Translations under genes and position numbers: made by a program
Shown: positions 3,647 to 46,298 of the stretch, one piece after another
Layout of the letters: each line of letters begins with the position of its first letter
Numbering within the stretch: position 1 is the first letter of the stretch
Assembly (NCBI GenBank): GCA_021831785.1
Contig: JAKBMB010000006.1
Coordinates: forward strand, 124,001 to 188,000
Reading direction: 5' to 3'
Origin: Deltaproteobacteria bacterium
GTDB lineage: Bacteria; Desulfobacterota; Binatia; Binatales; Binataceae
DNA length: 64,000 bases
The notes under the pieces: model-generated
What the model saw: only the letters and a program-made list of their open reading frames with translations
The model's database searches: none
Told to the model about the DNA's origin: nothing

Positions 3647-4090
3647 AATTATCCGACCTTGTTGACCCGCTCTCTCAATCTACCACTGGAGACCGCCTTT
3701 GCTGTTGCGAGCGCGCGTTGCGCGAGCCGCATATTAGGTAGCGGCAGCATCCGTGCGAAGACAATACGTTAGCGTGTTGTACGCAATGTCTTCTAGCGGA
3801 CCCTGGAAAGCTGTTTGACGCCGGTCGTGAATCACCTGAAACTTTAAGTGGAAATTTCCATTTTGGTCACTGGGACCAAAGCGAGCATAGCACAGACCTC
3901 CCGTCATACAAGGTTTGAGAGCAGGCTTGGAGCCGATTCTCCGGTTGGGAAACCCCGACTGCTCCCGCGATGGCCGGTCCCGCCCCGCCACCTCCAGGCG
4001 CGGGCGCTTTTCGGCTGATTTCCGAACACACACACCTTTCCATCTCCCCTGTCTCTTGTCGTTAGATCGGACGGCCGCCAGCGCCTTTGG
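3647..4090. other. gene-free stretch between the cytochrome and the IS remnant
   Basis: No coding sequence I can defend. It is less GC-rich than its surroundings and holds two adjacent dyads at 3849-3880, listed separately. The left part may carry the promoter of the minus-strand cytochrome gene, and the right part should contain the left end of the IS1380 element. I could not identify its terminal inverted repeat. Confidence 0.5.
3849..3880. promoter_or_regulatory. two adjacent dyads, possible operator
   Basis: Positions 3849-3860 are a perfect 12-base palindrome (TGGAAATTTCCA). Two bases later, TTTGGTC at 3862-3868 is repeated inverted as GACCAAA at 3874-3880 with a five-base spacer. They lie about 200 bases upstream of the minus-strand cytochrome c start. 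Side-by-side dyads of this kind can bind dimeric regulators, but no regulator gene is near, so the role is a guess. Confidence 0.3.
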
Positions 4091-5175
4091 CTATCCCGCC
4101 GGCACCGGCAAGGCCGCGATCTTCTCCAGCATGTGGGCGAACAGCCGCCGCGTCAGGTGGCTTTCCGCCAACAGCAACCCCTAGTAGCGGGCATGCTTGA
4201 GCAGACGACTGCCGGTCTTTATCAGTCGCTGCTGCAAGCTGGTCAGCGACCAGGTCGCGGCCCGCGTCGGCAGCGCCAGCCGCCCGTCGCGCCCGCTTTC
4301 AGCTCGCCGCCTGATAAAGAAAGCTGTGGTAGCGCACCACCGGCTTGTAGCTCGGCTTTCCCATTAGCCGGGTCAGCAATTTCCTGATGTTGCGCTCCAG
4401 GTTATCATTGGCAATAAGGCGGATGGCGTACCTCACCTCCCGTTCTTCCAGCGCGTCGTATAGCTCCGGCTTGGCAAACGCCGCGTCGTCCCCGGAAGGC
4501 CACCTCGATGCCCAGCGCTTTAAGCTGCTCGGTGTCGGCCGGCAGCAGCTCATTGCAGCCCTCGGCGCTGTGGACGTTGCCGGGCCGCAGCTTGGCGGCC
4601 AGGCAATCGCCCTCGCGGTTGAACGGCAGCAGCGGATGACAGCAGGTGGACTCGAAGGGCCCGTTGTAGGCGCTCTGCTCTTGCGCGCCGTAAACCGGCA
4701 TCTCGGTTGAGTCCATGTCCAGCGCCACCCGTCGAGGTGAAGCGATAGCCTCCGCTCCGGCGAGCAACTCCTGATTGAGCGCAGCCAGACCGGCAAGGTT
4801 TTCTGCTTGCGCCAGCACTTCCGTCTCGAACGACCGCAAGCGCGAAGTCAACGCTGCTCCGCGCTCCCAAATCTTCCTGGCACTGATGCGCCGGAAGGCC
4901 GGGTTTTGGGACAGCCGTTCAGCGTCGTTGACGTCCTCATAGCCCGTCAGCCGGCTGTATACCGACTGCCGCACGAGGTCGATTAGAGGCAACTGGGCGT
5001 TCTTTCTCCGCCCGTCCGCGAGCTGCCGTTCGATCAGCTCGCCGAAGCCCAACCGCTCATCCAATTCCCGCGCCAGCAGCAAGCCGCCGTCGCAAGTGAC
5101 CTGCGCGCCCTGGAACTCGACCCGCAGGGAGCGGTTGAACGAAAGCTGAAAAAGCCGCTTTCGCTTCTCACTCAC
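4091..5175 (-). mobile_element. IS1380-type transposase, frameshifted and internally deleted
   Basis: From the ATG at 5175 the frame reads a typical IS1380 N-terminus (FQGAQVTCDGGLLLARELDE, LPLIDLVRQSVYSRLTGYED, ALDMDSTEMPVYGAQEQSAY). Near 4490 it shifts frame and continues as DDAAFAKPELYDALEEREVR to YHSFLYQAAS and a stop. About 80 residues of the family's middle are then absent. The C-terminal end reappears in a third frame (WSLTSLQQRLIKTGSRLLKH, LFAHMLEKIAALPVPAG) with a stop at 4091-4093. The transposase is inactive. Terminal inverted repeats were not identified. Confidence 0.8.
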
Positions 5176-31184: not shown

Positions 31185-32225
31185 TCAACAGATTCGCGGC
31201 AGCGGCTCTCCTTCCGGTTCGTTGAGGAGACGGCGGCCGAAGCCGGTATCGAGGATCACGATGCCGGGCCGCTCGGCGAGGCAGGTTCCGATGATGGCCG
31301 CGTCGGCGCCGAGCGGATGCCTTCGCAGCGCCGCGACCACCGCCTCGGCGGCCGCGGCGCGCACGCCGAGCACCGCTTTGCCCTCGTTGGCCGCGTGCAG
31401 CGGGTCGATGCCCAGCAACTCGCTTGCGGCGCGCACTTCCTGCCGGATGGGGATCGCGGCTTGGTCGATCACAATGCCCACGCCGCTTTTGTCCGCCATT
31501 TCGTGCAACGCGCTGGCCAATCCGCCGCGGGTCGGATCCTTCATTGCGGTCACCGCGTCGGGCGTGCATTCGAGCGCAGCGCGCACCAGGGAGTTAAGCG
31601 GGGCGACATCGGAGAGTAATTGCGTCTCGAGCCCCAGGTCGTGCCGGCAGGCCATCACCGCGAGCCCGTGATCGCCGATAGTGCCGGTAACCACGATCCG
31701 GTCGCCCGGCTTAAGTCCTCGGTCAGTGACGACTTGGCGGACCAAGGCTACCCCCGCGGTATTGATGACGATCCCGTCGAGTTCCCCGCGGCCCATCACC
31801 TTGGTGTCGCCGGTGACGACCGAGGCGGCGGCCTGCCGGCACGCGGCGCGCATCGATTCCTGGATGCGCTCGAGGCCGCGGCGCGGGAAACCCTCCTCGA
31901 GGACAACCGCGCAAGTGAGCCCCAGCGGCTCGGTCGCTCCCATCATCGCCAGGTCGTTCACCGTCCCCGCGATCGCAAGCCGCCCGATGTCGCCGCCTGG
32001 AAAGAAGGGCGGCTGAATTACGTAGGAGTCGGTCGTGATGACCAGCCATCGGTCGCCAAGCTTTAGCGCCGCCCCGTCGTCCATGGCCGCGGGCCCGATC
32101 CCTTCGAAGGGTACTGAGTCGGCGTCCGTAAGGAAAACCTGGCGAATGAGGTCGCGCATGGCGCGTCCGCCCGCGCCGTGCTTGAGCGCGATCCTGCCGT
32201 CCCTGGCCATTGCGCTGCCGCTCAT
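31185..32225 (-). CDS. hypE: hydrogenase maturation factor HypE
   Basis: A 346-residue PurM/AIRS-fold protein that dehydrates a carbamoylated C-terminal cysteine to the thiocyanate used for the CN ligands of the NiFe centre. It shows KHGAGGRAMRDLIRQVF near the N-terminus, FFPGGDIGRLAIAGTVNDLA, SVVTGDTKVM and MKDPTRGGLASALHEMA. The chain ends in PRIC, the essential terminal Cys motif. The start overlaps the hypD stop by four bases. Confidence 0.95.
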   Translation of the reverse strand: MSGSAMARDGRIALKHGAGGRAMRDLIRQVFLTDADSVPFEGIGPAAMDDGAALKLGDRWLVITTDSYVIQPPFFPGGDIGRLAIAGTVNDLAMMGATEPLGLTCAVVLEEGFPRRGLERIQESMRAACRQAAASVVTGDTKVMGRGELDGIVINTAGVALVRQVVTDRGLKPGDRIVVTGTIGDHGLAVMACRHDLGLETQLLSDVAPLNSLVRAALECTPDAVTAMKDPTRGGLASALHEMADKSGVGIVIDQAAIPIRQEVRAASELLGIDPLHAANEGKAVLGVRAAAAEAVVAALRRHPLGADAAIIGTCLAERPGIVILDTGFGRRLLNEPEGEPLPRIC

Positions 32226-33361
32226 TCGCGCGCTCCAAGGTCGAGATGGCCGCCGTACTCGTGCCAGATTCGGCAGGTGCCCTCACTGCTCACCATGCAG
32301 GCGCCCACGGGATTCTCCGGAACGCATTGGCGGCCGAACAGCGGACAGGCATTGGGGCTTGCGACGCCGGCCATAATTTCGCCGCAGATGCAGCTCTGGG
32401 CGAGGCTTGGCGGTGCGAGGTCCCAAAGCCGTTCGAGGTCGATCCGAAAGCGTTTGCGCGCGTCGAGGTGCGCGTATTCGTCGCGCAGGCGCAGATTGCC
32501 GTTGGGAACATGAGCGATGCCGCGCCAACGTCCACCGGTGGGCTTGAACACACGCCACAGCAGGCGCTGCGCGTTGCGGTTGCCCTCGCGCGTGACGCAG
32601 CGCGGATACATGTTGGCGACCTCGGCGCGCCGGTCCCGAATCAATTCGACCAGCCGAACCAGCCCGGCCAGGATATCCAGCGGCTCGAATCCCGCCACGA
32701 CCACGGGCATCTCGTGGCGCTGGACAAACCGCTCAAAGATGCCCCATCCCGTGACGGTCGCGGCGTGGCCCGCGGCGAGGAATCCCTCGACGCGTGTCTC
32801 GGGCATCTCGGCCACGATTTCCATCACCGGCGGGATGTACTTGTGCGCCGACAGGACCGAGAAGTTCACCGGCGGACCGGCCTCGATCACCGCCGCGGTC
32901 GCGATCGCGGTGGTCTCGAAGCCGCTGGCGAAGAACACGCACTGCTCATCGGACTCGCGAGCGATTCGGACCGCCTGGGCCACGCTGTAGACGACGTCCA
33001 CGCTCGCGCCCTCGGCTTTGGCGTCAGCGAGCGATTTCGCGCTGCCCGCCACCCTCAGCATGTCGCCGTAGGTGAGGATGCGCGGTCCCTGCTGGGCCAG
33101 CGCCACCGCCTCATCGACCTCCGGCATATCGGTCACGCACACCGGGCATCCCGGTCCCATGATCACATCGAGCTCGCGCGGGAAGACGGCGCGCAGGCCG
33201 TATTTGGCGATCGCCTGCTCGTGGCTCCCGCACACGTGCATCACTGAGACGGGCGCCCGCCCGATTTCGCGCACCAGCCGCGTCAACAGCGCGGTCATCA
33301 ACCGCGCCGTGGCCGGGTCCCGGAAGCGCAAGGCGCCGGCGAGTAGGTCCTGATCAGCCAC
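32222..33361 (-). CDS. hypD: hydrogenase maturation factor HypD
   Basis: A 379-residue [4Fe-4S] protein that assembles the Fe(CN)2CO unit with HypC. The active-site cysteines lie in VMHVCGSHEQAI and MGPGCPVCVTD. The cluster cysteines lie in SCICGEIMAG, CPLFGRQCVPENPVGACMVS and the late GTCRIW. I choose the GTG at 33361 because it gives an eight-base overlap with hypC and homology starts just after; an ATG at 33400 would extend it by 13 residues into hypC. Confidence 0.95.
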   Translation of the reverse strand: MADQDLLAGALRFRDPATARLMTALLTRLVREIGRAPVSVMHVCGSHEQAIAKYGLRAVFPRELDVIMGPGCPVCVTDMPEVDEAVALAQQGPRILTYGDMLRVAGSAKSLADAKAEGASVDVVYSVAQAVRIARESDEQCVFFASGFETTAIATAAVIEAGPPVNFSVLSAHKYIPPVMEIVAEMPETRVEGFLAAGHAATVTGWGIFERFVQRHEMPVVVAGFEPLDILAGLVRLVELIRDRRAEVANMYPRCVTREGNRNAQRLLWRVFKPTGGRWRGIAHVPNGNLRLRDEYAHLDARKRFRIDLERLWDLAPPSLAQSCICGEIMAGVASPNACPLFGRQCVPENPVGACMVSSEGTCRIWHEYGGHLDLGARE

Positions 33362-33644
33362 GTTTTCTGCCCTCGGCGGCCTCAATCTCACTGCGCACAT
33401 CGGCCGCCATCAGGTCGTCTTCCTCGCCGGCCTTAAGCAACTCCTCATACAAGGCCAGCGTCTGATCGACCTCGCCCGGCGGGATGCGGCGAATCGCGAA
33501 GCCGACGTGGTTCATGATGTAGTCGCCGGGTGCGACCGGCTCGTCGACCACATCGAGTCTGACCTCCCTGCATACGCCGAAGAAATCGACCGTTGCCAGC
33601 GATCCTTCGACCGACACTACCTTACCTGGAACGCCGAGACACAT
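33354..33644 (-). CDS. hypC: hydrogenase chaperone HypC
   Basis: A 96-residue HypC/HupF-family protein beginning MCLGVPGKVVSVEGSLATVD. Cys2 binds the iron centre during its assembly on HypD and then the large-subunit precursor. DYIMNHVGFAIRRI is the usual second signature. It has a C-terminal acidic extension of about 20 residues. It lies five bases after hypF. Confidence 0.95.
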   Translation of the reverse strand: MCLGVPGKVVSVEGSLATVDFFGVCREVRLDVVDEPVAPGDYIMNHVGFAIRRIPPGEVDQTLALYEELLKAGEEDDLMAADVRSEIEAAEGRKRG

Positions 33645-33649
33645 CGCGG

Positions 33650-35968
33650 TCAGCCTCCGGGCGACCGGCGCGTCTGCGCGGCCGCCACCATCGCCTGTCC
33701 AAGCGCGATGCCGCCGTCACCGGGCGGCACCTGCCCGTGCGTGTAAAGCTCGAAATCGGCGCCGAGCAGGCTCTGCACGCCGTGGGTGAGCAGCTCGTTC
33801 TGGAAGCATCCGCCGGTCAAGACCACCGGCAACCGCCCCCGAAGCTCGGCAGCGGCCTGAACGACCGCCGCGGTTGCCTCCGCCAGCGTGCGGTGAAAAC
33901 GCGCCGCGATGACGGCGGGCTCGCGCCCGGCGAGTAGGTCGGCCACCGTTTCCCGCACTGCTACCCGCAAGTCGATTTGCCATGGCGCGCAGGTTCGGTC
34001 AATGGCGTAGCCATAGCGCCCGCGCTCCTCGCCGCTTGGCGCGAACTCAAGCATCGTTGCTATCTGCCCTTCGTAGTGGGACTCGGGCCTGGCGAAAGCC
34101 ATGGCGCCAATCGCGTCGAAGTAGCGGCCGACGCCGTGCGCGAGCGGGCTGTTAAAGCGACCGGCGATCATGCGGCGCACGACCGTGACCGACTGCGGCG
34201 GGAGCTGGCGAAATAGCGCCAGCCTCTCCAGGGGCGCTCGGTCGTCAAACGCGTCGACAAGAGCGGCGAGTGCCACGCGCCATACCTGGCGAATCGCCGT
34301 ATCGCCGCCCGGGAGCGCGAGCGGGCGAAAGGTCGCGATCCGCTCGAAGCTTTCATAATTGGCGAGCAGCAGCTCGCCACCCCATGCCGCGCCGTCAAGG
34401 CCATAGCCGGTGCCATCATACGCCAGGCCCAGCACCGGCCCTTCGAGCCCGTGCTCCGCCATGGCGCTGGCGACATGCGCATGATGGTGCTGGACGCCGA
34501 CACGCAAGACGCCGCGCCGCGCCATCGCGTAGCGCGTCGAGAGGTAGTCAGGATGCAGGTCATGGGCCACGACTTCCGGCTGCACGCCGAGGAAGTGTTC
34601 CATCCGCGCAATTTGCTCCGCGAGCGACAGGTAGGCTTCCGCGTTGTCAAGGTCCCCCACATGAGGGCCGAGATAGGCCTCCTCCCCCACGCCCAGGCAA
34701 AACGTGTTCTTAAGCTGCGCGCCGCAAGCCAGCACGGGATGGGGAAAGGCGGGCTTGACCCCAAGCGGCCGCGGGACGTACCCGCGCGAGCGTCTCAACA
34801 CGACCGGACGGCCGACAAGCGACCGCGCAATCGAGTCCTCGCACCGCGTGACAATCTCGCGGTCGTGCATCAAAAAGGCGTCGGCGATGCCGCTCAGCCG
34901 CCGGCGCGCCTCCTCGTTGCGATAAGCGATGGGTTCCTCGCTTAAATTGCCCGAGGTCATCACGAGCGGCCTTGCGCATTCGGCCATAAGCAGGTGGTGC
35001 AGGGCGGTATAGGGAAACATCAGCCCGACCATCGGACAGTCCGGCGCGACCCCGTCGGCGAGGCCGGAGGCGACGCGCCGGCGCGCAAGTACTATCGGAC
35101 GCGCCGCCGATATCAGCAAGTTGCGCTGGCAGCGGTCAAGGACGCCAAGACGCTCGGCGCCCACAAGGTCCCCGATCATGACGGCAAACGGCTTGCGTTC
35201 GCGCCGTTTGCGTCGGCGAAGCCTTGTCACGGCGAAATCGGACGTCGCGTCGCAGGCTAGATGGAATCCGCCCAGTCCCTTGATAGCGACGATTAAGCCC
35301 GCATCGATGGCCCGCGCGGCGCTCCCAATGGCATCGCCGCGCGGCTCGTTGCCGACGGCATCAAGGAATCGAAGCTTCGGACCGCACGCCGGGCAGGCGT
35401 TGGCTTCGGCGTGAAAGCGCCGGTCCGCGACCGTTTCGTATTCGGCCCGGCACTGCGCGCACAGATTAAACGGCGCCATGCTGGTCGTCCAGCGGTCGTA
35501 CGGTACGGCGCGCGCGATAGTGAGCCGAGGTCCGCAGTTGGTGCAGTTGATGAAGGCATAATGATAGCGGCGGTTGCGCGGATCCAACACCTCGGCGAGG
35601 CATTCGGGGCAGGTCGCGATGTCGGGCGGAATCGAGGCGCGTCGCGTGGCCGTGGCCTGGCTCGGAGCGATTTCAAACGCCGCGGGAGCCGGTCCTGAAA
35701 CCGGCTCCCATTCAAGCGCTGTTATCCGCGCCGCCGGCGGAGGCTCCGCCTCGAGCCGCGCGAGGAAGCCCTTAAGGGCGGGAGCGGAGCCGAATGCTTC
35801 GATGGTGACCCCGCAGGCGTCGTTGCGCACGGAGCCTGCGATCCCATGTTCGTGGGCGAGGCGGAAAACCCAGGGACGGAAACCCACGCCCTGCACGGTT
35901 CCCCGGATGCGGATCTCGCGTCCGGCATCGGCGGTCCCGCGCAGGCGATCTCGATCACGCGAGCTCAT
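33650..35968 (-). CDS. hypF: carbamoyltransferase HypF
   Basis: A 772-residue protein with all HypF domains: acylphosphatase (residues about 18-105, RIRGTVQGVGFRPWVFRLA), two zinc fingers (CPECLAEV with CTNCGPRL, and CAQCRAEY with CPACGPKL), a YrdC-like domain, and the Kae1-like C-terminal domain with the HHHAHVASAMAEHGL metal site and VLTGGCFQNELLT. It moves a carbamoyl group from carbamoyl phosphate to HypE. The gene order F-C-D-E, all in tight contact, shows one transcript. Confidence 0.95.
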   Translation of the reverse strand: MSSRDRDRLRGTADAGREIRIRGTVQGVGFRPWVFRLAHEHGIAGSVRNDACGVTIEAFGSAPALKGFLARLEAEPPPAARITALEWEPVSGPAPAAFEIAPSQATATRRASIPPDIATCPECLAEVLDPRNRRYHYAFINCTNCGPRLTIARAVPYDRWTTSMAPFNLCAQCRAEYETVADRRFHAEANACPACGPKLRFLDAVGNEPRGDAIGSAARAIDAGLIVAIKGLGGFHLACDATSDFAVTRLRRRKRRERKPFAVMIGDLVGAERLGVLDRCQRNLLISAARPIVLARRRVASGLADGVAPDCPMVGLMFPYTALHHLLMAECARPLVMTSGNLSEEPIAYRNEEARRRLSGIADAFLMHDREIVTRCEDSIARSLVGRPVVLRRSRGYVPRPLGVKPAFPHPVLACGAQLKNTFCLGVGEEAYLGPHVGDLDNAEAYLSLAEQIARMEHFLGVQPEVVAHDLHPDYLSTRYAMARRGVLRVGVQHHHAHVASAMAEHGLEGPVLGLAYDGTGYGLDGAAWGGELLLANYESFERIATFRPLALPGGDTAIRQVWRVALAALVDAFDDRAPLERLALFRQLPPQSVTVVRRMIAGRFNSPLAHGVGRYFDAIGAMAFARPESHYEGQIATMLEFAPSGEERGRYGYAIDRTCAPWQIDLRVAVRETVADLLAGREPAVIAARFHRTLAEATAAVVQAAAELRGRLPVVLTGGCFQNELLTHGVQSLLGADFELYTHGQVPPGDGGIALGQAMVAAAQTRRSPGG

Positions 35969-35971
35969 AAG

Positions 35972-36373
35972 CTACTTCCGTCCAACCGAAAGGACGTACG
36001 CCGCCAAGTCCCACGTCTGCTCTTCGGTCAGGGTTGTCCACGCCGGCATGGCCGTTCCCGCTACGCCCTGGCGAATGGCGAAAAAGACGCGCCGCGGCGA
36101 AGTCGCCGCGCGCCAGTCCGGATTGGTAAAGTCTCGCGGCGCAGGCTCGATCCCTTCGCTGCGCATTCCATGACCATCGGCCCGCGTCCCGTGACAGATC
36201 GCGCAGCGCTCGAGGAACAAAGCGCGGCCTCGTCGGCGCGCCGCCGCCGAGGCCAGCAGACCCTCGGGCATGCACAGGGCGCGGTAATGGCGCGGCAGAT
36301 CAGCATCCCGGCCTCGACATCCCGAAAGCAGCACCCACGCCGCCAAAGCGGCCCACGCGAGGCGCCTTTTCAT
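35972..36373 (-). CDS. lipoprotein c-type cytochrome in the hydrogenase operon
   Basis: A 133-residue protein with a lipoprotein signal (WVLLSGC, lipid Cys19) and a single haem motif CAICH (Cys57, Cys60, His61). A distal Met is likely in AGTAMPAWTTLTEEQ, before the closing helix TWDLAAYVLSVGRK. It should be anchored on the periplasmic side and could accept electrons from the membrane hydrogenase. The start at MKRRLAW gives the proper signal peptide. It overlaps the end of the protease gene by about 74 bases and precedes hypF by three. Confidence 0.75.
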   Translation of the reverse strand: MKRRLAWAALAAWVLLSGCRGRDADLPRHYRALCMPEGLLASAAARRRGRALFLERCAICHGTRADGHGMRSEGIEPAPRDFTNPDWRAATSPRRVFFAIRQGVAGTAMPAWTTLTEEQTWDLAAYVLSVGRK

Positions 36374-36869
36374 GTTTCGGCCTCTGGGAAAATTCGTGTC
36401 CGAGAGCGCCCGCTTCAGCCGCAATTCGCCGCGTCAGCGCGCGCAGCCGCCGCTCGATCTGGGGTGACAAGCCCACGCCTAGATCGATGCTTTTCGGGAC
36501 CAGCCCGACAAGCACCAATTTGGCGGGCGACCATCCCAAAAGCGCCGCTCCGTCCAAAAGGTCGGCGACTCCCACTTGGTGCGGTGACAGCCGCGTGCGA
36601 GCGGCCGAGCGCACCTCATCGTCCTCCAGGCGCACGAGCGAGCCGGGCCGGCATCCGGGGCGCCGCACCGCGTCGACCATCAAGACACGCTCCGCGTCCA
36701 TCACCAGCGGCAGAAGAGAGAGACCGAGCGTGCCGCCGTCAACGACCTCGACGCCGGCGGGAGTTACGTAGCTCTGCTTCAGGAGATCGACCGCCAACAC
36801 GCCGAGCCCATCATCGCCGCAAAGGACGTTGCCAAGCCCAAGAATTAGAAGCTCAACGTACTCAGCCAT
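36300..36869 (-). CDS. hyaD: hydrogenase maturation protease, HyaD/HupD type
   Basis: A 189-residue nickel-dependent endopeptidase that trims the large-subunit C-terminus. Conserved sites are LILGLGNVLCGDDGLGVLAV, with Asp (GDDG) as a nickel ligand, VLMVDAVRRPGCRPGSL with the second acidic ligand, and the SPHQVG His. The C-terminal 40 residues are Arg/Gly-rich and overlap the cytochrome c gene in another frame. The start at MAEYVEL matches the family. It serves HyaB, whose cleavable tail is visible. Confidence 0.9.
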   Translation of the reverse strand: MAEYVELLILGLGNVLCGDDGLGVLAVDLLKQSYVTPAGVEVVDGGTLGLSLLPLVMDAERVLMVDAVRRPGCRPGSLVRLEDDEVRSAARTRLSPHQVGVADLLDGAALLGWSPAKLVLVGLVPKSIDLGVGLSPQIERRLRALTRRIAAEAGALGHEFSQRPKHEKAPRVGRFGGVGAAFGMSRPGC

Positions 36870-37011
36870 TGCGCGCCTCCGCGAGCGTCTCGGGACCGAC
36901 GAACTTACTCTCCGGGAAGACCGATTCCACGTCTCCATGCGGCGTACCAACTTTTGAGCGGCCGTCATCTATCCACGTCTTTGCCCCAGGCCGGATTACC
37001 AAGCTCGGCAC
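36862..37011 (-). CDS. possible 49-residue ORF between the cytochrome b and protease genes
   Basis: A GTG at 37011 opens a frame reading VPSLVIRPGAKTWIDDGRSK and ending FVGPETLAEARNG, with its TGA overlapping the protease ATG by eight bases. The composition looks natural and it fills an otherwise empty 158-base gap in a packed operon. No ribosome site is convincing and I know no homologue, so it may be chance. Confidence 0.28.
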   Translation of the reverse strand: MPSLVIRPGAKTWIDDGRSKVGTPHGDVESVFPESKFVGPETLAEARNG

Positions 37012-37027: not shown

Positions 37028-37747
37028 TCAGCGGCCGTCAGCAGCCTGGACCAACTCGCGCCGGACGAGCTTGCGCCCGGTGAACATCGAGTCGATAAGA
37101 TGGTTGCGCTCGACCGTGGAGACCATGATCCTGGTGCATACATGATACGGTATGAAAGCGAGTATCAGCCACATGCAAACGTGATGGATCCAGCGCACCG
37201 TCTCCAGGCCCCCGAAATACGGAACCAGGAGGGCGAACGGACGCATGACTGAATCGTACGCGGCGCTAACTCCGTAAAGCGCAAGGCCGGTAGTAGCGAT
37301 CAACGCTTCCAGCAGGAAGAGAAGCACATAGGTCACGCCGGTCAGCGCGTCCACGCCTACTACTTCCGGCGGCCAGCGGCGCAGGAAGAGATAAAATTTC
37401 AGCGTCTCAAGAAGGTTACGCAGCCGTTCTCTACAGACCGGGACGAATTGGTCCCAGCGCGCATACTCGTTGCCGACGAACATCCAGGCAATCCGAGCGA
37501 GCAACGCAAGGTCGAATACGATAGCCGTATACCAGTGAATCACTCTCACCCACCCGGTCACAAAGTGGTTGGTTGCGGAGCCGGCGACGGCGACAAAGGG
37601 ATGGCTGATGTAAAGGCCGGTGATGACCAGAATCGTGACCGACAGTACAATCAGCCAGTGGGTGACGCGAACCGGAAGCTCCCACACATAAACCTGAACC
37701 GCCTGCGCCTGTGCGCCAACGGCTGCGGCGCTGCTCTGGTTGCTCAT
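37028..37747 (-). CDS. hyaC: Ni/Fe-hydrogenase b-type cytochrome subunit
   Basis: A 239-residue di-haem cytochrome b with four membrane segments, for example THWLIVLSVTILVITGLYIS, AIVFDLALLARIAWMF, VTYVLLFLLEALIATTGLAL and IHHVCMWLILAFIPYHVCTR. Histidines in VTHW, VIHW, IHH and PYH can ligate the two haems. It anchors the uptake hydrogenase and passes electrons to quinone. Its ATG overlaps the hyaB stop by four bases. Confidence 0.9.
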   Translation of the reverse strand: MSNQSSAAAVGAQAQAVQVYVWELPVRVTHWLIVLSVTILVITGLYISHPFVAVAGSATNHFVTGWVRVIHWYTAIVFDLALLARIAWMFVGNEYARWDQFVPVCRERLRNLLETLKFYLFLRRWPPEVVGVDALTGVTYVLLFLLEALIATTGLALYGVSAAYDSVMRPFALLVPYFGGLETVRWIHHVCMWLILAFIPYHVCTRIMVSTVERNHLIDSMFTGRKLVRRELVQAADGR

Positions 37748-39450
37748 ACGACTCTCACTCGCGCGAGTTCGCGCCCCTCAAGGTCGAGCACGTGCACCCC
37801 GCAAGCGATGCAGGGGTCGAAGGAATGCACGGTGCGCAGGATTTCGAGCGGCTGGTCCGGCTTGGCCAGCGGCGTGCCGACCAGCGCCTCTTCGTAGGGG
37901 CCGCGCCGCGCGGCGGCGTCCCGCGGCCCGGCGTTCCAGGTGCTGGGCACGACGCACTGGTAATTGACGATCGCGCCGCCGCGGATGTGGACCCAGTGCC
38001 CAAGCGCGCCGCGCGGCGCCTCGTGAAAGCCCGCGCCCCAGCATTCCGCCGGCCAGCTCGCCGGTTCCCATTTGGAGTGGTCATGGATGCGCAGGTCGCG
38101 GCGGGCCATGTTCTCGGCCAGTCCGTCAACCCAGTCCTGCATCTTCTCGGCGATGAGCTGGGTCTCGATTCCGCGCGCTGCCACTCGTCCCAGCGTCGAA
38201 AACAGCGCCGGCGGACCGACTCCGAGCGAGGCCAGCGTCCGGTCGACCAATTGCTTGACCCGCTGATGGCCGGATGCATAGGCGACCAGCATCCGCGCCA
38301 GCGGCCCCACCTCCATCGGCTCGCTGTCGTAGCGGGGTGATTTGAGCCAGCTATACTTGGCTTCGGTGAACAGGCGCTCGTAGGGAGGGTTGGGGCCGGT
38401 GTAGTTGGGATGCGTCTCGCCCTTGAACGGGTGCAGCCCTTTATCGTCGCCCCCATCGTAGTCGTACCAGGAATGCTTGACGTATTCGGAGATCTTTTCC
38501 TGGTCCATCGGTTCCACGCGGCTCAAATCGCGCTTCCTGATGACGCCGGGTGGAATGTAAAGCTTGGGCGTCGGACCGTCATCCTCGGGGTACTCCCCAT
38601 AAGCGAGGTAGTTGCCGACGCCCGAACCAATCCCCGTCCAGTCCTTGTAGAACGACGCGATCGCGAGCAGGTCCGGAATATACACGCGCGTCACGAAGTC
38701 GCGCGCGCTCGCCACAAGTTCGCTCAACTGCGCGATCGTGCCGAGATTGAGCGCGTTTTGGGAGTCGGGATCGATCGGAGTCGCCGCGCCGCCCACCAGG
38801 AAGCTCTGCAAATGGGGATTCTTGCCGCCCAGGACGGCGTGAATCCGGATGAAGCGGCGCTGAAAGTCGAGCGCCTCGAGATAATGCGCCACCGCCATCA
38901 AATTCGCCTCCGGCGGAAGGCGGTAGGCGGGATGGCCCCAGTAGGCGTTGGCGAAGGGCCCGAGCTGCCCGCGGCTTACGAAGCCCTTGAGCCGCTCGCG
39001 CACGCCGGCGAAATACGCGCGGCTCGAAAGCGGCCAGTCGGAAATTGACTGGGCCAGCGCGGCGGTCTTAGCCGGGTCGGCAGAGAGAGCGGAGACGATG
39101 TCGACCCAGTCGAGCGCGTGCAAATGGTAAAAATGAATGACGTGGTCGTGGACACATTGCGACCCGATTATTAGGTTGCGCAAGAGCCGCGCGTTCGGCG
39201 GCGGGGCCGCGCCGATCGCGTGCTCGACGGCGCGAATCGACGCGATGGCGTGAACGGTGGTGCACACGCCGCAGATGCGCTGGGTGAAAACCCAGGCATC
39301 GCGCGGGTCGCGTCCCTTCAGGATGATCTCGATCCCGCGGAACATGGTCGCCGACGACCACGCGTCGCGCACCATCCCGCCTTCGGCTTGGGCCTCGATG
39401 CGCAGGTGGCCCTCGATCCGAGTCACCGGGTCAACCACGACGCGTGTCAT
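37744..39450 (-). CDS. hyaB: [NiFe] uptake hydrogenase large subunit, group 1
   Basis: A 568-residue catalytic subunit. The NiFe ligands are in the L1 motif RICGVCTTVHAIASI (Cys60, Cys63) and the L2 motif DPCIACGVH (Cys547, Cys550). After His553 comes a 15-residue tail (VLDLEGRELARVRVV) that the protease should remove. The N-terminal VVDPVTRIEGHLRIEA is standard. The start at 39450 (MTRVVVD) lies one base after the small-subunit stop. It oxidises H2 at the outer face of the membrane. Confidence 0.95.
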   Translation of the reverse strand: MTRVVVDPVTRIEGHLRIEAQAEGGMVRDAWSSATMFRGIEIILKGRDPRDAWVFTQRICGVCTTVHAIASIRAVEHAIGAAPPPNARLLRNLIIGSQCVHDHVIHFYHLHALDWVDIVSALSADPAKTAALAQSISDWPLSSRAYFAGVRERLKGFVSRGQLGPFANAYWGHPAYRLPPEANLMAVAHYLEALDFQRRFIRIHAVLGGKNPHLQSFLVGGAATPIDPDSQNALNLGTIAQLSELVASARDFVTRVYIPDLLAIASFYKDWTGIGSGVGNYLAYGEYPEDDGPTPKLYIPPGVIRKRDLSRVEPMDQEKISEYVKHSWYDYDGGDDKGLHPFKGETHPNYTGPNPPYERLFTEAKYSWLKSPRYDSEPMEVGPLARMLVAYASGHQRVKQLVDRTLASLGVGPPALFSTLGRVAARGIETQLIAEKMQDWVDGLAENMARRDLRIHDHSKWEPASWPAECWGAGFHEAPRGALGHWVHIRGGAIVNYQCVVPSTWNAGPRDAAARRGPYEEALVGTPLAKPDQPLEILRTVHSFDPCIACGVHVLDLEGRELARVRVV

Positions 39451-39451
39451 G

Positions 39452-40552
39452 TCAATCCTCCTCGGTCGTCTTGTCCTGCGGCCTTGGGCCGGACCTGCGT
39501 CTGGCGGTCTGCGCGATGCCATGCGCAACGAACGCGGCCGTCACGCCGACGGTGCCCCAGAGGCCGGCCTTGTCGACGTCCGAGGCGACGCCGAAACCGG
39601 GGATGCCGGAGAGATGGCGGTAGAACGGGGTCATCCGGTCCCAGAAGTTCGGTTCGGCGCACCCCAAGCACGGATGGCCGCAGCCGATCGGCCAGTTGGT
39701 GCCTTCGTTCCACTGCACCGCCGGGCAGTTCTGCGACGTAACCGGTCCCTTGCATCCCATCTTGTAGAGGCAGTAGCCGTGCCGATGTCCTTCGTCACCC
39801 CACGCTTCGACGTACTGCCCGGCGTCGAAGTGGGCCCTGCGTTCGCAGTTGTCATGGATCAGCTTGCCGTAGGCGAACAGCGGCCGGCGATATTGGTCAA
39901 GTGGAGGCCATTGCTTAAGCGTCAGGTAATAGACGAGCAGCGCCGTAATGTTCTCGGCATTGGCCGGACAGGCCGAAAGATTGATCAGGTTGCTTAGTCC
40001 TGGCACCGCGTCGCCCACCGCGACGGCGCCCGTAGGGTTCGGGCTGGCGGCGGGAATGCCTCCAAAGCAGGCGCAGGTGCCGACCGCCACCGTCGCCATC
40101 GCCTTGCCGCACACCTCGCGCGCGATCTCAATCGCCGACTTTCCTCCAATCGTGCAGTAGACGCCACCCGCTCCGGTTGGAATCGAACCTTCGACCACCG
40201 CAATGAAGCGGCCCGCCTGCTCCTGAACAGTCTTGGCGAGCGTTTGCTCGGCCTGATGGCCGGCCGCCGCCATGATCGTCTCATGGTAATTAATCGAGAG
40301 CGTTTCGAGGATGATCTCGGCTACCGTCGGCCGGCTCGCTCGCAAAAAGGACTCGGTGTTGCCGGCACAGTCCTGGAACTCGAGCCATACGAGCGTAGGC
40401 TTGTCCGTCCTCTCCATCGCCTCGGCGATCGCCCCAAGGGCCGTCCCGGGCAGCGCCAGCACGGCAGCCATCTTCGTGCAGAAGCCCAGGAATTCACGCC
40501 GCGATACCCCGCGCTCCTCAAGCTCCCGAGCCAGCCAACTTTCGCAAGCCAT
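39452..40552 (-). CDS. hyaA: [NiFe] uptake hydrogenase small subunit, group 1, Tat-exported
   Basis: A 366-residue Fe-S subunit. It has a twin-arginine signal (SRREFLGFC, residues 17-25), then LVWLEFQDCAGNTESFLRAS, where most relatives have a CxxC proximal-cluster motif; here Cys62 is kept but position 65 is Asn. Further ligands lie in GVYCTIGG and VGTCACFGG, and the medial and distal set lies between HDNCERRAHFD and HPCLGCAEPNFW. A C-terminal membrane helix (LWGTVGVTAAFVAHGIA) anchors it. I choose the ATG at 40552, since GGGAGG lies just upstream and the Tat motif follows properly; an in-frame ATG at 40669 lies upstream of the predicted promoter. Confidence 0.9.
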   Translation of the reverse strand: MACESWLARELEERGVSRREFLGFCTKMAAVLALPGTALGAIAEAMERTDKPTLVWLEFQDCAGNTESFLRASRPTVAEIILETLSINYHETIMAAAGHQAEQTLAKTVQEQAGRFIAVVEGSIPTGAGGVYCTIGGKSAIEIAREVCGKAMATVAVGTCACFGGIPAASPNPTGAVAVGDAVPGLSNLINLSACPANAENITALLVYYLTLKQWPPLDQYRRPLFAYGKLIHDNCERRAHFDAGQYVEAWGDEGHRHGYCLYKMGCKGPVTSQNCPAVQWNEGTNWPIGCGHPCLGCAEPNFWDRMTPFYRHLSGIPGFGVASDVDKAGLWGTVGVTAAFVAHGIAQTARRRSGPRPQDKTTEED

Positions 40553-40598: not shown

Positions 40599-41230
40599 TC
40601 CTGCGAACTCGATGCAAGATGGCTCACGCGGGCGCTTACACCAGAGGTTTCCCATTCGAGGACATCCAAAGTGCGTCATCCTTGAAAGACCTAAGCCTAT
40701 CCTTATCCTAGTGGGCAAAAATGATTCTCATACGAGCATCATCACGAACCGGAACGCAGCGCCCGAGCTTGCGGCCGCGCCGGCCGCACCGTTTCGCCCG
40801 TGGGGCGGAAGGGTCCATGTAAAGCGACAAACGGGAAAAGCGGCAAAACGTGCCCAAAAGGACCAGCATCTGTATCCGAACTATCCAGCCGAATTTGCCT
40901 GCGCAGAAGCCTTCGGAATAGGGCTTTCATGCCCGGCGGAAGTCAATACGTCTCAATGACAGTTCGTGTCCGCGGCGAGGGCCGAACGGACATTCCGGTC
41001 GGCCGGAAAACTTAGCGCGCCTCCCGGCGCAGGAGACCGGTAAAGATTTTGCGAAAGTGCGGACACCTTGACAGCGCCTGCGTTTCAAAGCCACCGCTAG
41101 TCGCCTTTGCGCAGGAGCCGGACGCATGTGCGGGAATCCGGACTGAGAGGCTTGGCCGCGCATGGCTGACAGGCGCAAAACTCTTCAGCGAGAGGCCCGC
41201 GGCCGGTTCGAAAGCGCGTGATTCCAGGCC
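40599..41230. other. divergent control region between the two hydrogenase operons
   Basis: About 630 bases without a gene I can support; open frames here are Arg-rich and match nothing. It should hold the activator-binding sites for the two divergent -24/-12 elements at 40584 and 41231. I found no clear enhancer dyad. Confidence 0.4.
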
Positions 41231-41245: not shown

Positions 41246-41282
41246 CTACCGGAGAACGGCGCGACTATATTGAAAGGTGACG

Positions 41283-42428
41283 ATGCTTCCAGGAGAAACC
41301 GCGATAGTTGCGGCGGCTGCTCTGAGCGACCTGCTTCATGAGATCTCCCGACTCGGTTATACGCTGGTCGGCCCGACGGTCCGCGACGGCGCAATCGTCT
41401 ACCGCGAGATTCACAGCGCCGAGGATCTGCCCGCCGGATGGACCGACGTGCAGCAGCCGGGAAGCTATCGGCTCGCGCGCCGCGCCGACAGCGCGTTGTT
41501 CGGCTTCGCGGTCGGTCCTCACTCATGGAAACAGTTTCTCCATCAGCCGGCCGTGACGCTGTGGCACGCGCAGTTGGCTGACCAGGGGGCTGTCACGTTC
41601 GCCGCCGAGCCGCCCGAACGAAAAAGGCTCGCGCTAATCGGAGTACGCTCCTGCGAGCTGTACGCGATCGCGACGCAGGACAAAGTGCTGATCGGTGCCA
41701 CCTATTCGGACCCCCATTACGCGGCCCGGCGCGCTGGCCTCTTTGTGGTCGCGGTCAACTGCACGGTCGCTGGCGGCACCTGCTTTTGCGTCTCGATGAA
41801 GACCGGGCCGAAGGTCGAAACGGGCTATGATCTTGCGCTGACCGAGCTGATCGACGATGCCCGTCACGAGCTTTTCATCGAGGCCGGCAGCGAGCGGGGC
41901 GCCGAAGTGCTGGAGCGGGTGCCGCGCCGGCCGGCTGACGGCAGGGCGCGCGAGGCGGCGGAAAAAGCGGTGCGCGCGACCGCGGAAATGATGGGACGCC
42001 AGCTCGAGACCGAGGGGCTCCGCGAACTGCTCTACGCCAATCTCGAAAACTCGCGCTGGGACGAGGTCGCGACGCGATGCCTGGCGTGCGCCAACTGCAC
42101 GATGGTATGCCCGACGTGCTTCTGCACGACCATCGAAGACCATACTGACCTCGGCGCGCGCCGCGCGGAGCGAGTGCAGCGATGGGACTCGTGCTTCACC
42201 ACCGACTTTTCGCATCTGAACGCCGGCAGCGTCCGTTCTTCAATCAAGTCGCGCTACCGGCAGTGGCTGACCCACAAGCTCGCGTCCTGGATCGATCAGT
42301 TCGGGACGTCGGGATGCGTTGGATGCGGCCGATGTATCACTTGGTGCCCGGTCGGAATCGACCTGACCGAGGAGGCCGCGGCGATCCGCCGCACTGACCT
42401 ACGCTCGCAGACCGGCCGGGAGGCGTGA
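41283..42428 (+). CDS. hydB: group 3b hydrogenase beta subunit, Fe-S (HydB-like)
   Basis: A 381-residue protein of the HydB / anaerobic sulfite reductase A type. An N-terminal region has LIGVRSCELYAIATQDKVLI and VAVNCTVAGGTCFCVSM. The C-terminal dicluster ferredoxin domain has CLACANCTMVCPTCFC and GCVGCGRCITWCPVGIDL. In cytosolic bidirectional hydrogenases it carries electrons between the NAD(P)-binding subunit and the hydrogenase module. The ATG at 41283 follows AAGGTG; an in-frame GTG at 41277 lies within that site. First gene of a tight six-gene operon. Confidence 0.85.
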   Translation: MLPGETAIVAAAALSDLLHEISRLGYTLVGPTVRDGAIVYREIHSAEDLPAGWTDVQQPGSYRLARRADSALFGFAVGPHSWKQFLHQPAVTLWHAQLADQGAVTFAAEPPERKRLALIGVRSCELYAIATQDKVLIGATYSDPHYAARRAGLFVVAVNCTVAGGTCFCVSMKTGPKVETGYDLALTELIDDARHELFIEAGSERGAEVLERVPRRPADGRAREAAEKAVRATAEMMGRQLETEGLRELLYANLENSRWDEVATRCLACANCTMVCPTCFCTTIEDHTDLGARRAERVQRWDSCFTTDFSHLNAGSVRSSIKSRYRQWLTHKLASWIDQFGTSGCVGCGRCITWCPVGIDLTEEAAAIRRTDLRSQTGREA

Positions 42429-42429
42429 C

Positions 42430-42891
42430 TTGGAAACCATCGAACGGCTTCTGCGCGAGCATCCGTTTCTCCAAGGACTCGACGATCGGCAGTTCGCGCT
42501 CCTGGCCGGATGCGCGAAGAAAGCGCGCTTTGCTGCCGGCGAGTACATCTTTCGGGAAGGTCAGGAAGCCAACGCCTCATACCTCGTGCGCACGGGGCGC
42601 GTGTCGCTCGAGGTTAATGTGGCCGGGCGCGGTCCTGTCCAGCTCCACACGGTTGAAGAGGGCGAGGTGCTCGGATGGTCGTGGCTCTATCCCCCTTACC
42701 GTTGGCAGTTCGACGCGCGCGTGGTCGAGCCGCTGTGGGCCATCTTTCTCGATGGCGCATGCCTGCGCAGTAAGTGCGAATCCGATCATGATCTCGGTTA
42801 TGAGCTAGTCAAGCGCTTGCTCCGCCAGGTGCATCAGCGGCTCGAAAGAGCCCGTTTCCAACTGCTCGATATCTACCGGGCAGGCTCGTAG
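42430..42891 (+). CDS. cyclic-nucleotide-binding domain protein without DNA-binding domain
   Basis: A 153-residue protein that is almost only a CRP-like cNMP-binding domain: HPFLQGLDDRQFALLAGCAK, AGEYIFREGQEANASYLVRT, VSLEVNVAGRGPVQLHTVEE and GEVLGWSWLYPPYRWQFDAR. The chain ends after the long C-helix and has no helix-turn-helix. It starts with TTG one base after the hydB stop. Genes like this recur in group 3b hydrogenase operons, which suggests an allosteric or assembly role for the hydrogenase; that role is inferred. Confidence 0.75.
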   Translation: METIERLLREHPFLQGLDDRQFALLAGCAKKARFAAGEYIFREGQEANASYLVRTGRVSLEVNVAGRGPVQLHTVEEGEVLGWSWLYPPYRWQFDARVVEPLWAIFLDGACLRSKCESDHDLGYELVKRLLRQVHQRLERARFQLLDIYRAGS

Positions 42892-42909
42892 GAACGCGGC
42901 GCGGCTGCG

Positions 42910-43770
42910 ATGGAGACGCGGGCCTCGGATCCGAACGGAGCCGCGTCCCCGGCTCCGACACTACCCCGCGCCACGCCCGTCCGCAGGGTAATCCGCGAGA
43001 GCGCCGACACGGTCACGCTCGAGCTCGACAATTCCGTCGGCCGGTCCTTCGCCCCCGGCCAGTTCAACATGCTCTATCTTTTCGGAGTTGGCGAGGTAGC
43101 GGTCTCGATAAGCGGCGGCCCCGTCGAATCGCAGGTCCTGGCGCATACGGTACGCGCCGCCGGGGCGGTCACCAGGCTGTTGGTCAACGTGAAGCGCGGC
43201 GCGACGATTGGCGTGCGTGGCCCGTACGGCAGCGCGTGGCCGATCGAGGGGGCCGCGCGCGAGCGCCTCGACCTGCTGGTAGTGGCCGGCGGGATCGGGA
43301 TCGCGCCGCTTCGTCCGGTCATCTACCACGCGCTTCGTGAGCGCCATCGCTTCGGCCGGTTGATCGTGCTTTTCGGCGCGCGCCGCCCCGACGATCTGAT
43401 TTACGCTCGCGAGTTCAACCGCTGGCGCGCGTATCCGGGCGTGGAGCTGCGCACGATAGTCGATCACGGAAGCTCGAACTGGCGCGGGCCGGTCGGAATT
43501 ATCACCGATCTGCTCGCGACCACGGACTTCGACCACGACGATACGCTCGCGATGGTCTGCGGACCGGAGGTGATGATGCGCTTTGTCCGGCACGCGCTGG
43601 TCGGCCGCGGCCTGCCGCCCGAGCGCATCTACCTGTCGCTCGAACGCAACATGAAATGTGCGATCGGCCATTGCGGGCATTGTCAATTACTCCCGTTTTT
43701 CGTCTGCAAGGACGGTCCGATCTTTGCGCTGCCGAAAGTCGCGCCGTTGCTTGACATGAGGGAGCTGTAG
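42910..43770 (+). CDS. hydG: group 3b hydrogenase gamma subunit, FAD/NAD(P)-binding (HydG-like)
   Basis: A 286-residue ferredoxin-NADP reductase-type subunit. The FAD part has [20 protein letters not shown], the NAD(P) part has [20 protein letters not shown] and [16 protein letters not shown]-terminal [2Fe-2S] site is formed by [20 protein letters not shown]. It exchanges electrons with NAD(P)H in the cytoplasm. It lies 18 bases after the cNMP-binding gene. Confidence 0.9.
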
Positions 43771-43775
43771 CAAAG

Positions 43776-44564
43776 ATGGCTGCGGCGCGGCGCAAACGCC
43801 TGGCGGTATGGAAATTTGCCTCGTGCGACGGATGCCAGTTGAGCCTGCTCGATTGCGAGGACGAGCTGCTCGCGCTCGCGGAGCAGGTCGAGATTGCGCG
43901 GTTCCTGGAAGCCAGCCGCGCGACGATTAGCGGGCCGTACGACCTTTCGCTTGTCGAGGGTTCGATAACCACGGCCCGCGACGCCGAGTTGATCCGCGAG
44001 GTGCGCCGCGTTTCGCGAGCGTTGGTGACGATCGGAGCGTGCGCCACGGCGGGTGGAATTCAGGCGCTGCGCAACTTCAAGGACGTCAGGGAGTTCGCGT
44101 CGATCGTATATGCAACACCCGCGTATATCGCAACGCTGGCAACCTCGACGCCGATCGCCGCGCACGTGCCGGTCGACTTCGAGCTGCGCGGATGTCCGAT
44201 CAATAAGCGGCAGCTACTCGAAGTGATAACCGCGTTCATCAACGGCCGGCGGCCCGACACTCCCGGTCATGCGGTATGCATCGAATGCAAGCAGCGCGGC
44301 ACGATATGCGTGATGGTCGCGCGCGGCGTGCCTTGCCTGGGACCGATCACTCACGCCGGATGTGGCGCGATCTGCCCGTCGTTTGCGCGTGGATGCTACG
44401 GGTGTTACGGGCCCGCCGACGCGCTGAATATCGAATCGCTCGGCCAGGCATGGCTCCGGGCGGGGGTGCCTCGCGGTGACGTGATGCGGGTGCTGCGCAG
44501 TTTCAACGCCGGCGCCGAGCCGTTCAGCAAGGCCGCGCTCGACTATGAAGACGATCAAAGTTGA
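43776..44564 (+). CDS. hydD: group 3b [NiFe] hydrogenase small subunit (HydD-like)
   Basis: A 262-residue small subunit without a Tat signal, hence cytoplasmic. The proximal cluster motif is intact: [15 protein letters not shown] (Cys17, Cys20), with [13 protein letters not shown] and a Cys in [10 protein letters not shown]. The C-terminal half has [20 protein letters not shown] and [15 protein letters not shown] for further clusters. Its end overlaps the large-subunit gene by 20 bases. Confidence 0.9.
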
Positions 44565-45828
44565 TTATCTCGCGCGAGTTGAAGGCGATGGCGCGCTGCG
44601 GATTCGCTTTCGCGGCGACCACGTGCGCGACGTTGAGCTGCGGATCTTCGAGCCGCCGCGCTTTTTCGAGGCGTTCCTGCGCGGCCGCTCGTTTGGCGAG
44701 GTCCCCGACATCACTGCGCGCATCTGCGGCATCTGTCCGGTCGCCTACCAGATGAGCAGTTGCCGCGCGCTGGAAGACGCGCTCGAGGTCAGGGTCACGC
44801 CCCACATTGATCAACTCAGGCGGCTCCTTTATTGCGGCGAATGGGTCGAAAGCCACGCCCTCCATATGTTTCTGCTGCACGCGCCCGACTTCCTCGGCTA
44901 CCCAGACGCGATGGCGATGGCGCGCGACCATCGCGAGATAGTGGTGCGCGGGCTCCAGATCAAGAAGGCCGGTAACGCGATCGTCAGCGCCGTGGGCGGC
45001 CGCGAGGTCCATCCGGTAAACGTCAAAGTCGGCGGCTTCTATCGGACCCCCGCCCGCGAGGAAATGGAGAAGCTCGCCGCGCAGTTGGAGGCGGCGCGCG
45101 ACGCCGCGCTGGAGGCGCTCGAGCGGATGGCGCGCTTTGATTTTCCCGACTTCAACCGTGACTATGAATTCGTTGCGCTGCGCGGCGCGGAGGACTATCC
45201 GTTTATCGGCAACCGTATCGTTTCCAATCGCGGGCTCGACATCGAAGCGGCCGAATACGATCAGGCCTTCGTCGAGCAGCAGGTTCCTCATTCGCACGCG
45301 CTTCATTCTACCGTGCGCGGACGCGGCGCTTACCTGTGCGGTCCGATGGCGCGCTTCAACCTGAATTTTGAGCGCCTGCGGCCGCTTGCTCAAGACGCCG
45401 CGCGCCGCGCCCGTATCCCGTTGCCGTGCCGCAATCCGTTCATGAGCCTCCTGGTGCGCGCGGTCGAGACGGTTCACGCCCTGGACGAGGCGCTTCGCCT
45501 GCTCGGCGTTATCGATTGGAGCGCCGAATCTTCGGTCGCTGTTCGACCGCGCGCTTGCGCCGGCTACGGCGCAAGCGAGGCGCCGCGCGGCCTGCTCTAC
45601 CATCGCTACCACCTCGATGACTCGGGGCGCGTCCTCGACGCCAAGATCGTTCCGCCGACCTCGCAGAACCAGCTTTCGATTGAGCACGACCTGCGCGAGC
45701 TGGCCGCGCAGATGGTCCGGCTCACTCATGACGAAGCTACCGTGCTCGCCGAACGGGCGATTCGCAACTACGACCCGTGTATCTCGTGCGCCACGCACTT
45801 CCTCGATCTCGCGATCGAGCGCGAGTGA
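44545..45828 (+). CDS. hydA: group 3b [NiFe] hydrogenase large subunit (HydA-like)
   Basis: A 427-residue catalytic subunit. L1 is [16 protein letters not shown] (Cys61, Cys64) and L2 is DPCISCATH (Cys412, Cys415), followed by a nine-residue tail FLDLAIERE that needs proteolytic removal. The N-terminal [17 protein letters not shown] is typical for group 3. With HydB, HydG and HydD it forms an NAD(P)-linked bidirectional hydrogenase, which in some organisms also reduces elemental sulfur. The stop overlaps the protease start by one base. Confidence 0.92.
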
Positions 45829-46298
45829 TGACCGCCAAGGCGCGCATAATCGGTATCGGGCAAGCCGTCGCCGGCGACGACGCCGCGGGCATCGCCGTAC
45901 TGCGCTACCTGCGCGACCGGGCCCCGTCTGAAGTGGAGCTTGTCGAGGCCGCCGAGCCGAGCGCGATCATTCCCCTGCTGATCGACGGCGCGAAGCGGGT
46001 GGTGCTGGTTGACGCAGTGTTAGGCGCCGGCGCTCCAGGACGCGTGGTAACCATCGATCCAAGCGGCGCAAAGATGCGCGGACGGCCCCTCTCCAGCCAC
46101 GGCGTGGGCGTGCTTGAGGCGGTTGAACTGGCGCGTGTTCTCGCACCCGAGAGCATCGCGCCGCGAATCGTGATCGTCGGTGTCACGATCGAGCGCCCGG
46201 CCGCTTACGGCGAGCGGCTTTCCGCCGCGGTTGAAGCGGTCGTGCCGAGAGCCGCTGACAAGGCGCTCCGCTTCGCGCGCAGGCGGGCTGATGCATGA
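45828..46298 (+). CDS. hydrogenase maturation protease for the group 3b enzyme
   Basis: A 156-residue HycI/HyaD-family endopeptidase: ARIIGIGQAVAGDDAAGIAV with the Asp pair of the nickel-sensing site, KRVVLVDAVLGAGAPGRVV, and LSSHGVGVLEAVELARVL with the conserved His. The ATG at 45828 shares its first base with the hydA stop; a longer frame exists but reads backward into hydA. It should cleave HydA after His418, while the protease at 36300 serves HyaB. Confidence 0.88.
   Translation: MTAKARIIGIGQAVAGDDAAGIAVLRYLRDRAPSEVELVEAAEPSAIIPLLIDGAKRVVLVDAVLGAGAPGRVVTIDPSGAKMRGRPLSSHGVGVLEAVELARVLAPESIAPRIVIVGVTIERPAAYGERLSAAVEAVVPRAADKALRFARRRADA

Follow-up and report, generated by a model that had tools for sequence, protein, structure and literature searches.

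The small subunit of the [NiFe] uptake hydrogenase analysed here carries an asparagine (Asn65) at the second proximal-cluster position, and this residue is a fixed signature of the subclade to which the protein belongs, alternating with Asp in the wider group. The replacement of Cys by Asn is the normal and already published state of an enzyme subgroup, with counterparts in two other subgroups. The enzyme is very probably of the group 1f type, with a substitution at position 65 that is subgroup-wide. Its gene lies in a window of 64,000 nucleotides (the whole stretch of DNA that was analysed, from contig JAKBMB010000006.1 of the Deltaproteobacteria bacterium assembly GCA_021831785.1), and by itself it represents one more group 1f-type sequence. 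The more general point comes from the survey of its relatives, in which the only residues found at the second proximal position are Cys, Asn, Asp and Glu.

Translation of the minus strand gives DCAGNTES for residues 61-68, with Cys62 retained and residue 65 being Asn, as the first-pass annotation had read it. The match to TIGR00391 (393.9 bits against a cut-off of 179.5) places the protein among the group 1 small subunits; it contains the Pfam domains NiFe_hyd_SSU_C and Oxidored_q6, and the closest solved structure is 1h2a_S (E 5e-97). A TTG at 40669 is a possible upstream start, but the start giving 366 residues is preferred since homology begins at residues 1-7 and the Tat signal RREFLGFC follows from it. 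A hydrophobic stretch is found near the C-terminus, at about residues 329-347. The remaining proximal ligands, Cys160 and Cys195, are both kept, and so are the distal set (His233, Cys236, Cys261 and Cys267) and the medial set (Cys276, Cys295 and Cys298, with Pro288 as the usual Pro at the fourth position). The source genome has a single match to the small subunit. Matches are found in 11 of the 41 genomes of the host family, and eight family genomes, the source genome included, match a close relative with at least 71% identity. Plasmid records, searched for a close relative with a name, contained nothing with at least 60% identity.

The protein belongs to an uptake hydrogenase of the ordinary [NiFe] type, anchored in the membrane and facing the periplasm, with the usual operon, which runs leftwards in the order small subunit, large subunit, cytochrome b, protease, cytochrome c, HypF, HypC, HypD and HypE-like protein (Table 1). 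The large subunit likely starts at an internal ATG (MTRVVVDPVTRIEG). The order from the small subunit to HypF is common to four near relatives (L001-L004); the order from the small subunit to the protease is kept in three further ones (L006-L008), and most of the longer order in L006. On the right, the operon is adjoined by a divergent group 3b-type hydrogenase gene set, comprising an Fe-S subunit, a small ORF, a flavin-reductase-like subunit, the small and large subunits and a protease-like ORF. The small subunit of this set retains both Cys, as had been noted at first pass.

Table 1. Positions in the window of the group 1 hydrogenase operon, of selected codons and of the adjoining group 3b-type genes.
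Feature	Positions	Strand	Evidence or remarks
[NiFe] hydrogenase small subunit (HyaA/HupS type)	39452-40552	minus	366 aa, no internal stops
Asn65 codon (AAC)	40358-40360	minus	Codes for the second proximal-cluster residue, which most group 1 enzymes have as Cys
Cys162 codon	40067-40069		In GTCACFGG
Cys291 codon	39680-39682		In WPIGCGHPC
Large subunit	37744-39450	minus	Pfam NiFeSe_Hases, E 7e-234; L1 RICGVCTTVH; L2 SFDPCIACGVH, then C-terminal extension
Ni/Fe-hydrogenase b-type cytochrome, quinone-side membrane partner	37028-37747	minus	TIGR02125, 153.8 bits (cut-off 121.5); Pfam Ni_hydr_CYTB
HyaD/HybD-type maturation protease	36300-36968	minus	TIGR00072, 132 bits (cut-off 47); Pfam HycI
Small c-type cytochrome	35972-36424	minus	Pfam Cytochrome_CBB3; conserved in the L001-L004 operons
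HypF	33650-35968	minus	Pfam HypF_C, zf-HYPF, Sua5_yciO_yrdC, Acylphosphatase
HypC	33354-33644	minus	Pfam HupF_HypC
Putative HypD	32222-33400	minus	Sequence and position; synteny with L006
HypE-like AIR synthase-related protein	31185-32225	minus	Pfam AIRS and AIRS_C; putative HypE by position
Group 3b-type hydrogenase gene set	41277-46298		Divergent from the group 1 operon
Group 3b-type small subunit	43776-44564		KFASCDGC

The substitution was followed among relatives in about 1,670 genomes, mainly of five phyla, from which 163 distinct small subunits were extracted. The eight nearest named-record loci (L001-L008), with 60-79% identity, all read DCAGN[T/S]ES; they come from metagenome-assembled genomes labelled Deltaproteobacteria, Acidobacteria, Myxococcales and Thermoflexales, and from Candidatus Oscillochloris fontis (L008, the same genome as L060). 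Position 65 was surveyed in 161 small subunits, with Asn in 57, Asp in 29 and Cys in 75. A tree of these 161 proteins was built without the position-65 column; it is a quick tree with some long branches, of which the starred ones alone are reliable. In this tree the window protein falls in a subclade of 22 rows (support 100), all of which have Asn, and the surrounding clade of 79 rows (support 99) holds 53 Asn, 23 Asp and 3 Cys. The whole tree needs eight residue changes at position 65, against a mean of 69 with shuffled labels. A reading of Asn65 as a singular change does not survive the all-Asn subclade and the earlier publication of the swap for group 1f. Several columns of the large subunit track Asn or Asp versus Cys, Ile227 and Leu233 among them, but they also run with the phylogeny, which leaves them without value as proof.

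One Asn row (L033) is nested within a supported Asp branch, so that Asn and Asp appear to be exchangeable. Furthermore, four acidobacterial proteins (L068-L071) read DCAGNTES and nevertheless fall outside the 79-row clade, in the neighbourhood of the group 1d branch with its six Cys. Together, these two placements imply that Asn arose more than once or was exchanged with Asp. Three members of the 79-row clade (L049, L103 and L110) have an ordinary Cys (DCAGC), which represents a loss or a regain inside the group; Asn or Asp is therefore not essential to it.

An extended set of 249 small subunits, for which 80 further loci, mostly group 1h and 2a relatives, were added, contains Cys in 99, Asn in 73, Asp in 70 and Glu in 5, plus one X and one gap; the sampling is weighted towards relatives of the window protein, and these counts are not natural frequencies. 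None of the 247 readable sequences has S, A, G, T, P or H at this position. Asn was found in 15 of 19 group 2a relatives, and the 46 group 1h relatives have either Asp (41) or Glu (5).

The substitution has been described before. A 2016 paper reports Asn or Asp in place of the proximal Cys for the group 1f enzymes of Roseiflexus, Geobacter and Frankia, and Asn for group 2a (PMC5364354), and the same position carries a Cys-to-Asn change in Nostoc and a Cys-to-Asp change in G. metalloreducens (PMC4070099). When Alteromonas HynS is engineered to carry Asn (C81N) or Asp (C81D), the enzyme stays active (PMC4070099). With regard to the host lineage, 22 group 1f sequences of Binatota had previously been classified by HydDB (PMC8262859).

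The group 1f name fits the window enzyme, and the label is carried over from these papers to a tree in which no row is formally labelled 1f. The 79-row clade, which holds Oscillochloris and a Desulfobacterota Asp branch, agrees with this assignment; the order of Candidatus Oscillochloris fontis is reported to have group 1f and/or 2a enzymes (PMC6776052). Asn65, the Tat signal, the C-terminal hydrophobic stretch and the b-type cytochrome are all group 1f traits. The likeness to group 1f, as known from Roseiflexus, Geobacter Hya, Binatota and Acidobacteria, extends to the residue at the second proximal position, the Tat signal, the cytochrome and the operon, and the window protein is not different in kind; its subclade has Ala194 and Cys291 besides.

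The other groups with which the enzyme could be compared fit less well. Group 2a (Huc of M. smegmatis and Nostoc HupSL) has Asn in the same column, and the solved HucS (7uur) reads CSGN there. Its members differ in lacking a Tat signal and a C-terminal anchor and in their medial and distal surroundings, and the identity to a group 2a protein is about 31%; membership in this group was therefore rejected. Group 1h also has a non-Cys oxygen-donor residue in this column, as the first-pass annotation had proposed and as the alignment with HofK of Cupriavidus necator (5aa5, CDGD) bears out. This group was rejected on account of its Asp or Glu in place of Asn, its lack of a Tat signal, an identity of about 30% and the position of the 1h rows on a distant branch. 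Group 1d (HoxK, E. coli Hyd-1) shares the character of a group 1 uptake enzyme with a cytochrome b, but its six Cys (ECTCC and one further on) hold a [4Fe-3S] cluster. The window protein, with DCAGN and GTCACFGG where group 1d has ECTCC and ..GCVQA, lacks one of the four standard Cys as well as both supernumerary ones, and does not belong to this group.

As to the role of Asn65, direct ligation to a proximal [4Fe-4S] cluster is the reading that we consider rather probable. In the proposed scheme, the enzyme oxidises H2, and the electrons travel along the three Fe-S clusters (proximal, medial and distal) and by way of cytochrome b into the quinone pool. The proximal cluster would be a [4Fe-4S] with Cys62, Cys160 and Cys195 as three of its ligands and Asn65, through its side-chain oxygen, as the fourth. 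This arrangement is modelled on the heterocyst HupS, a cyanobacterial group 2a protein for which a proximal [4Fe-4S] cluster with three Cys ligands and a single Asn ligand is reported (PMC6616624), and on the analogy with the 3Cys:1Asp cluster of group 1h. The restriction of the position to Cys, Asn, Asp and Glu argues for a metal-ligand role over an empty site, and a [4Fe-4S] cluster with Asn65 is favoured because only residues capable of binding iron through S or O are found there and because of the HupS report. The same restriction could alternatively stem from hydrogen bonding. The ligand, the cluster type and the physiological effect that we infer here would imply a shift in the potential or the stability of the proximal cluster, in either direction, and through it Asn65 may influence oxygen tolerance or hydrogen affinity.

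The main and serious rival is a proximal [3Fe-4S] cluster like that of Huc, in which Asn65 would not bind iron, the fourth iron would be absent and a high potential would suit low H2 and high O2. It draws on the Huc enzyme of M. smegmatis, which has three [3Fe-4S] clusters by cryo-EM and EPR, the proximal one being modelled as [3Fe-4S] at 1.52 A (PMC10017518); HucS has Asn in the same column, and Asn thus need not hold a fourth iron. Organisms carrying group 1f enzymes are also reported to oxidise atmospheric H2 (PMC7174314; PMC6776052), as would suit such a cluster. Against it, non-ligating residues such as Ala, Gly, Ser and Pro never occupy the position in the 247 sequences, the report on HupS of group 2a describes a [4Fe-4S] cluster, and the window protein is only about 31% identical to a Huc-type small subunit. 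The HupS and Huc reports disagree for the same residue and sequence does not decide between them; on balance, we hold the [3Fe-4S] reading to be possible, if on the unlikely side.

It is very unlikely that a [4Fe-4S] cluster has water or another residue as its fourth ligand, with Asn65 shaping the second sphere only. The extra Cys162, two residues after the proximal ligand Cys160, would be a candidate for such a role, but its presence in only one of the 22 subclade members excludes it as a general replacement ligand, and the restriction to Asn, Asp, Glu and Cys argues for direct contact. The CAC of the Cys162 stretch is the same as in HucS, a match that is probably due to chance. An artefact of sequencing or assembly can practically be dismissed, as can decay of the gene: the same residue recurs in dozens of independent genomes that span several phyla, the metagenome-assembled genomes of the nearest relatives among them, the ORF is intact, the operon is conserved, and nothing was found in favour. 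The first-pass annotation had judged an error improbable, and the 57 Asn among 161 small subunits uphold that judgement.

Its suggestion that Asn65 could give a distinct proximal cluster fares less evenly. An unusual cluster, here most probably the Asn-ligated [4Fe-4S], is plausible, but it is neither special to this gene nor previously unnoticed, with Asn or Asp in 76 of the 79 clade members and the swap in print (PMC5364354). The related question of a subgroup that carries Asn throughout and has an already described chemistry is answered largely in the affirmative: the substitution does run through the clade and is published, whereas the chemistry is described, in the open-licence papers searched, for the group 2a relatives only. 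Groups 1f, 1h and 2a, which are reported in atmospheric-H2 oxidisers, mostly lack Cys at this position, so that its role lends itself well to testing; of these three groups, 1f is the only one for which neither EPR nor other spectroscopy was found in the papers covered.

Within its subclade, the window protein shares two further residues. Ala194 is present in 22 of 22 members against 4 of the 57 other members of the 79-row clade, and Cys291 in 22 of 22 against none of the 57. Cys291 lies three residues after the medial-cluster Pro288 and might contact the medial cluster. This pair is the sole feature of the protein that we have not met in print, in a literature search directed at other points. 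That the subclade, with Asn65, Ala194 and Cys291, has a distinct Fe-S wire tuned for trace-level H2 uptake in air, as a convergent, membrane-anchored group 1 counterpart of Huc, seems improbable. If true, it would combine a proximal cluster that lacks part of its Cys set with an extra Cys near the medial ligands in sequence.

A last observation concerns a group 1h-like locus (L178), which encodes two small subunits a few kilobases apart on the minus strand (388-1452 and 4004-5173), one with CDGD (Asp) and the other with CDGE (Glu), and a PAS-type histidine kinase-like ORF lies between them.
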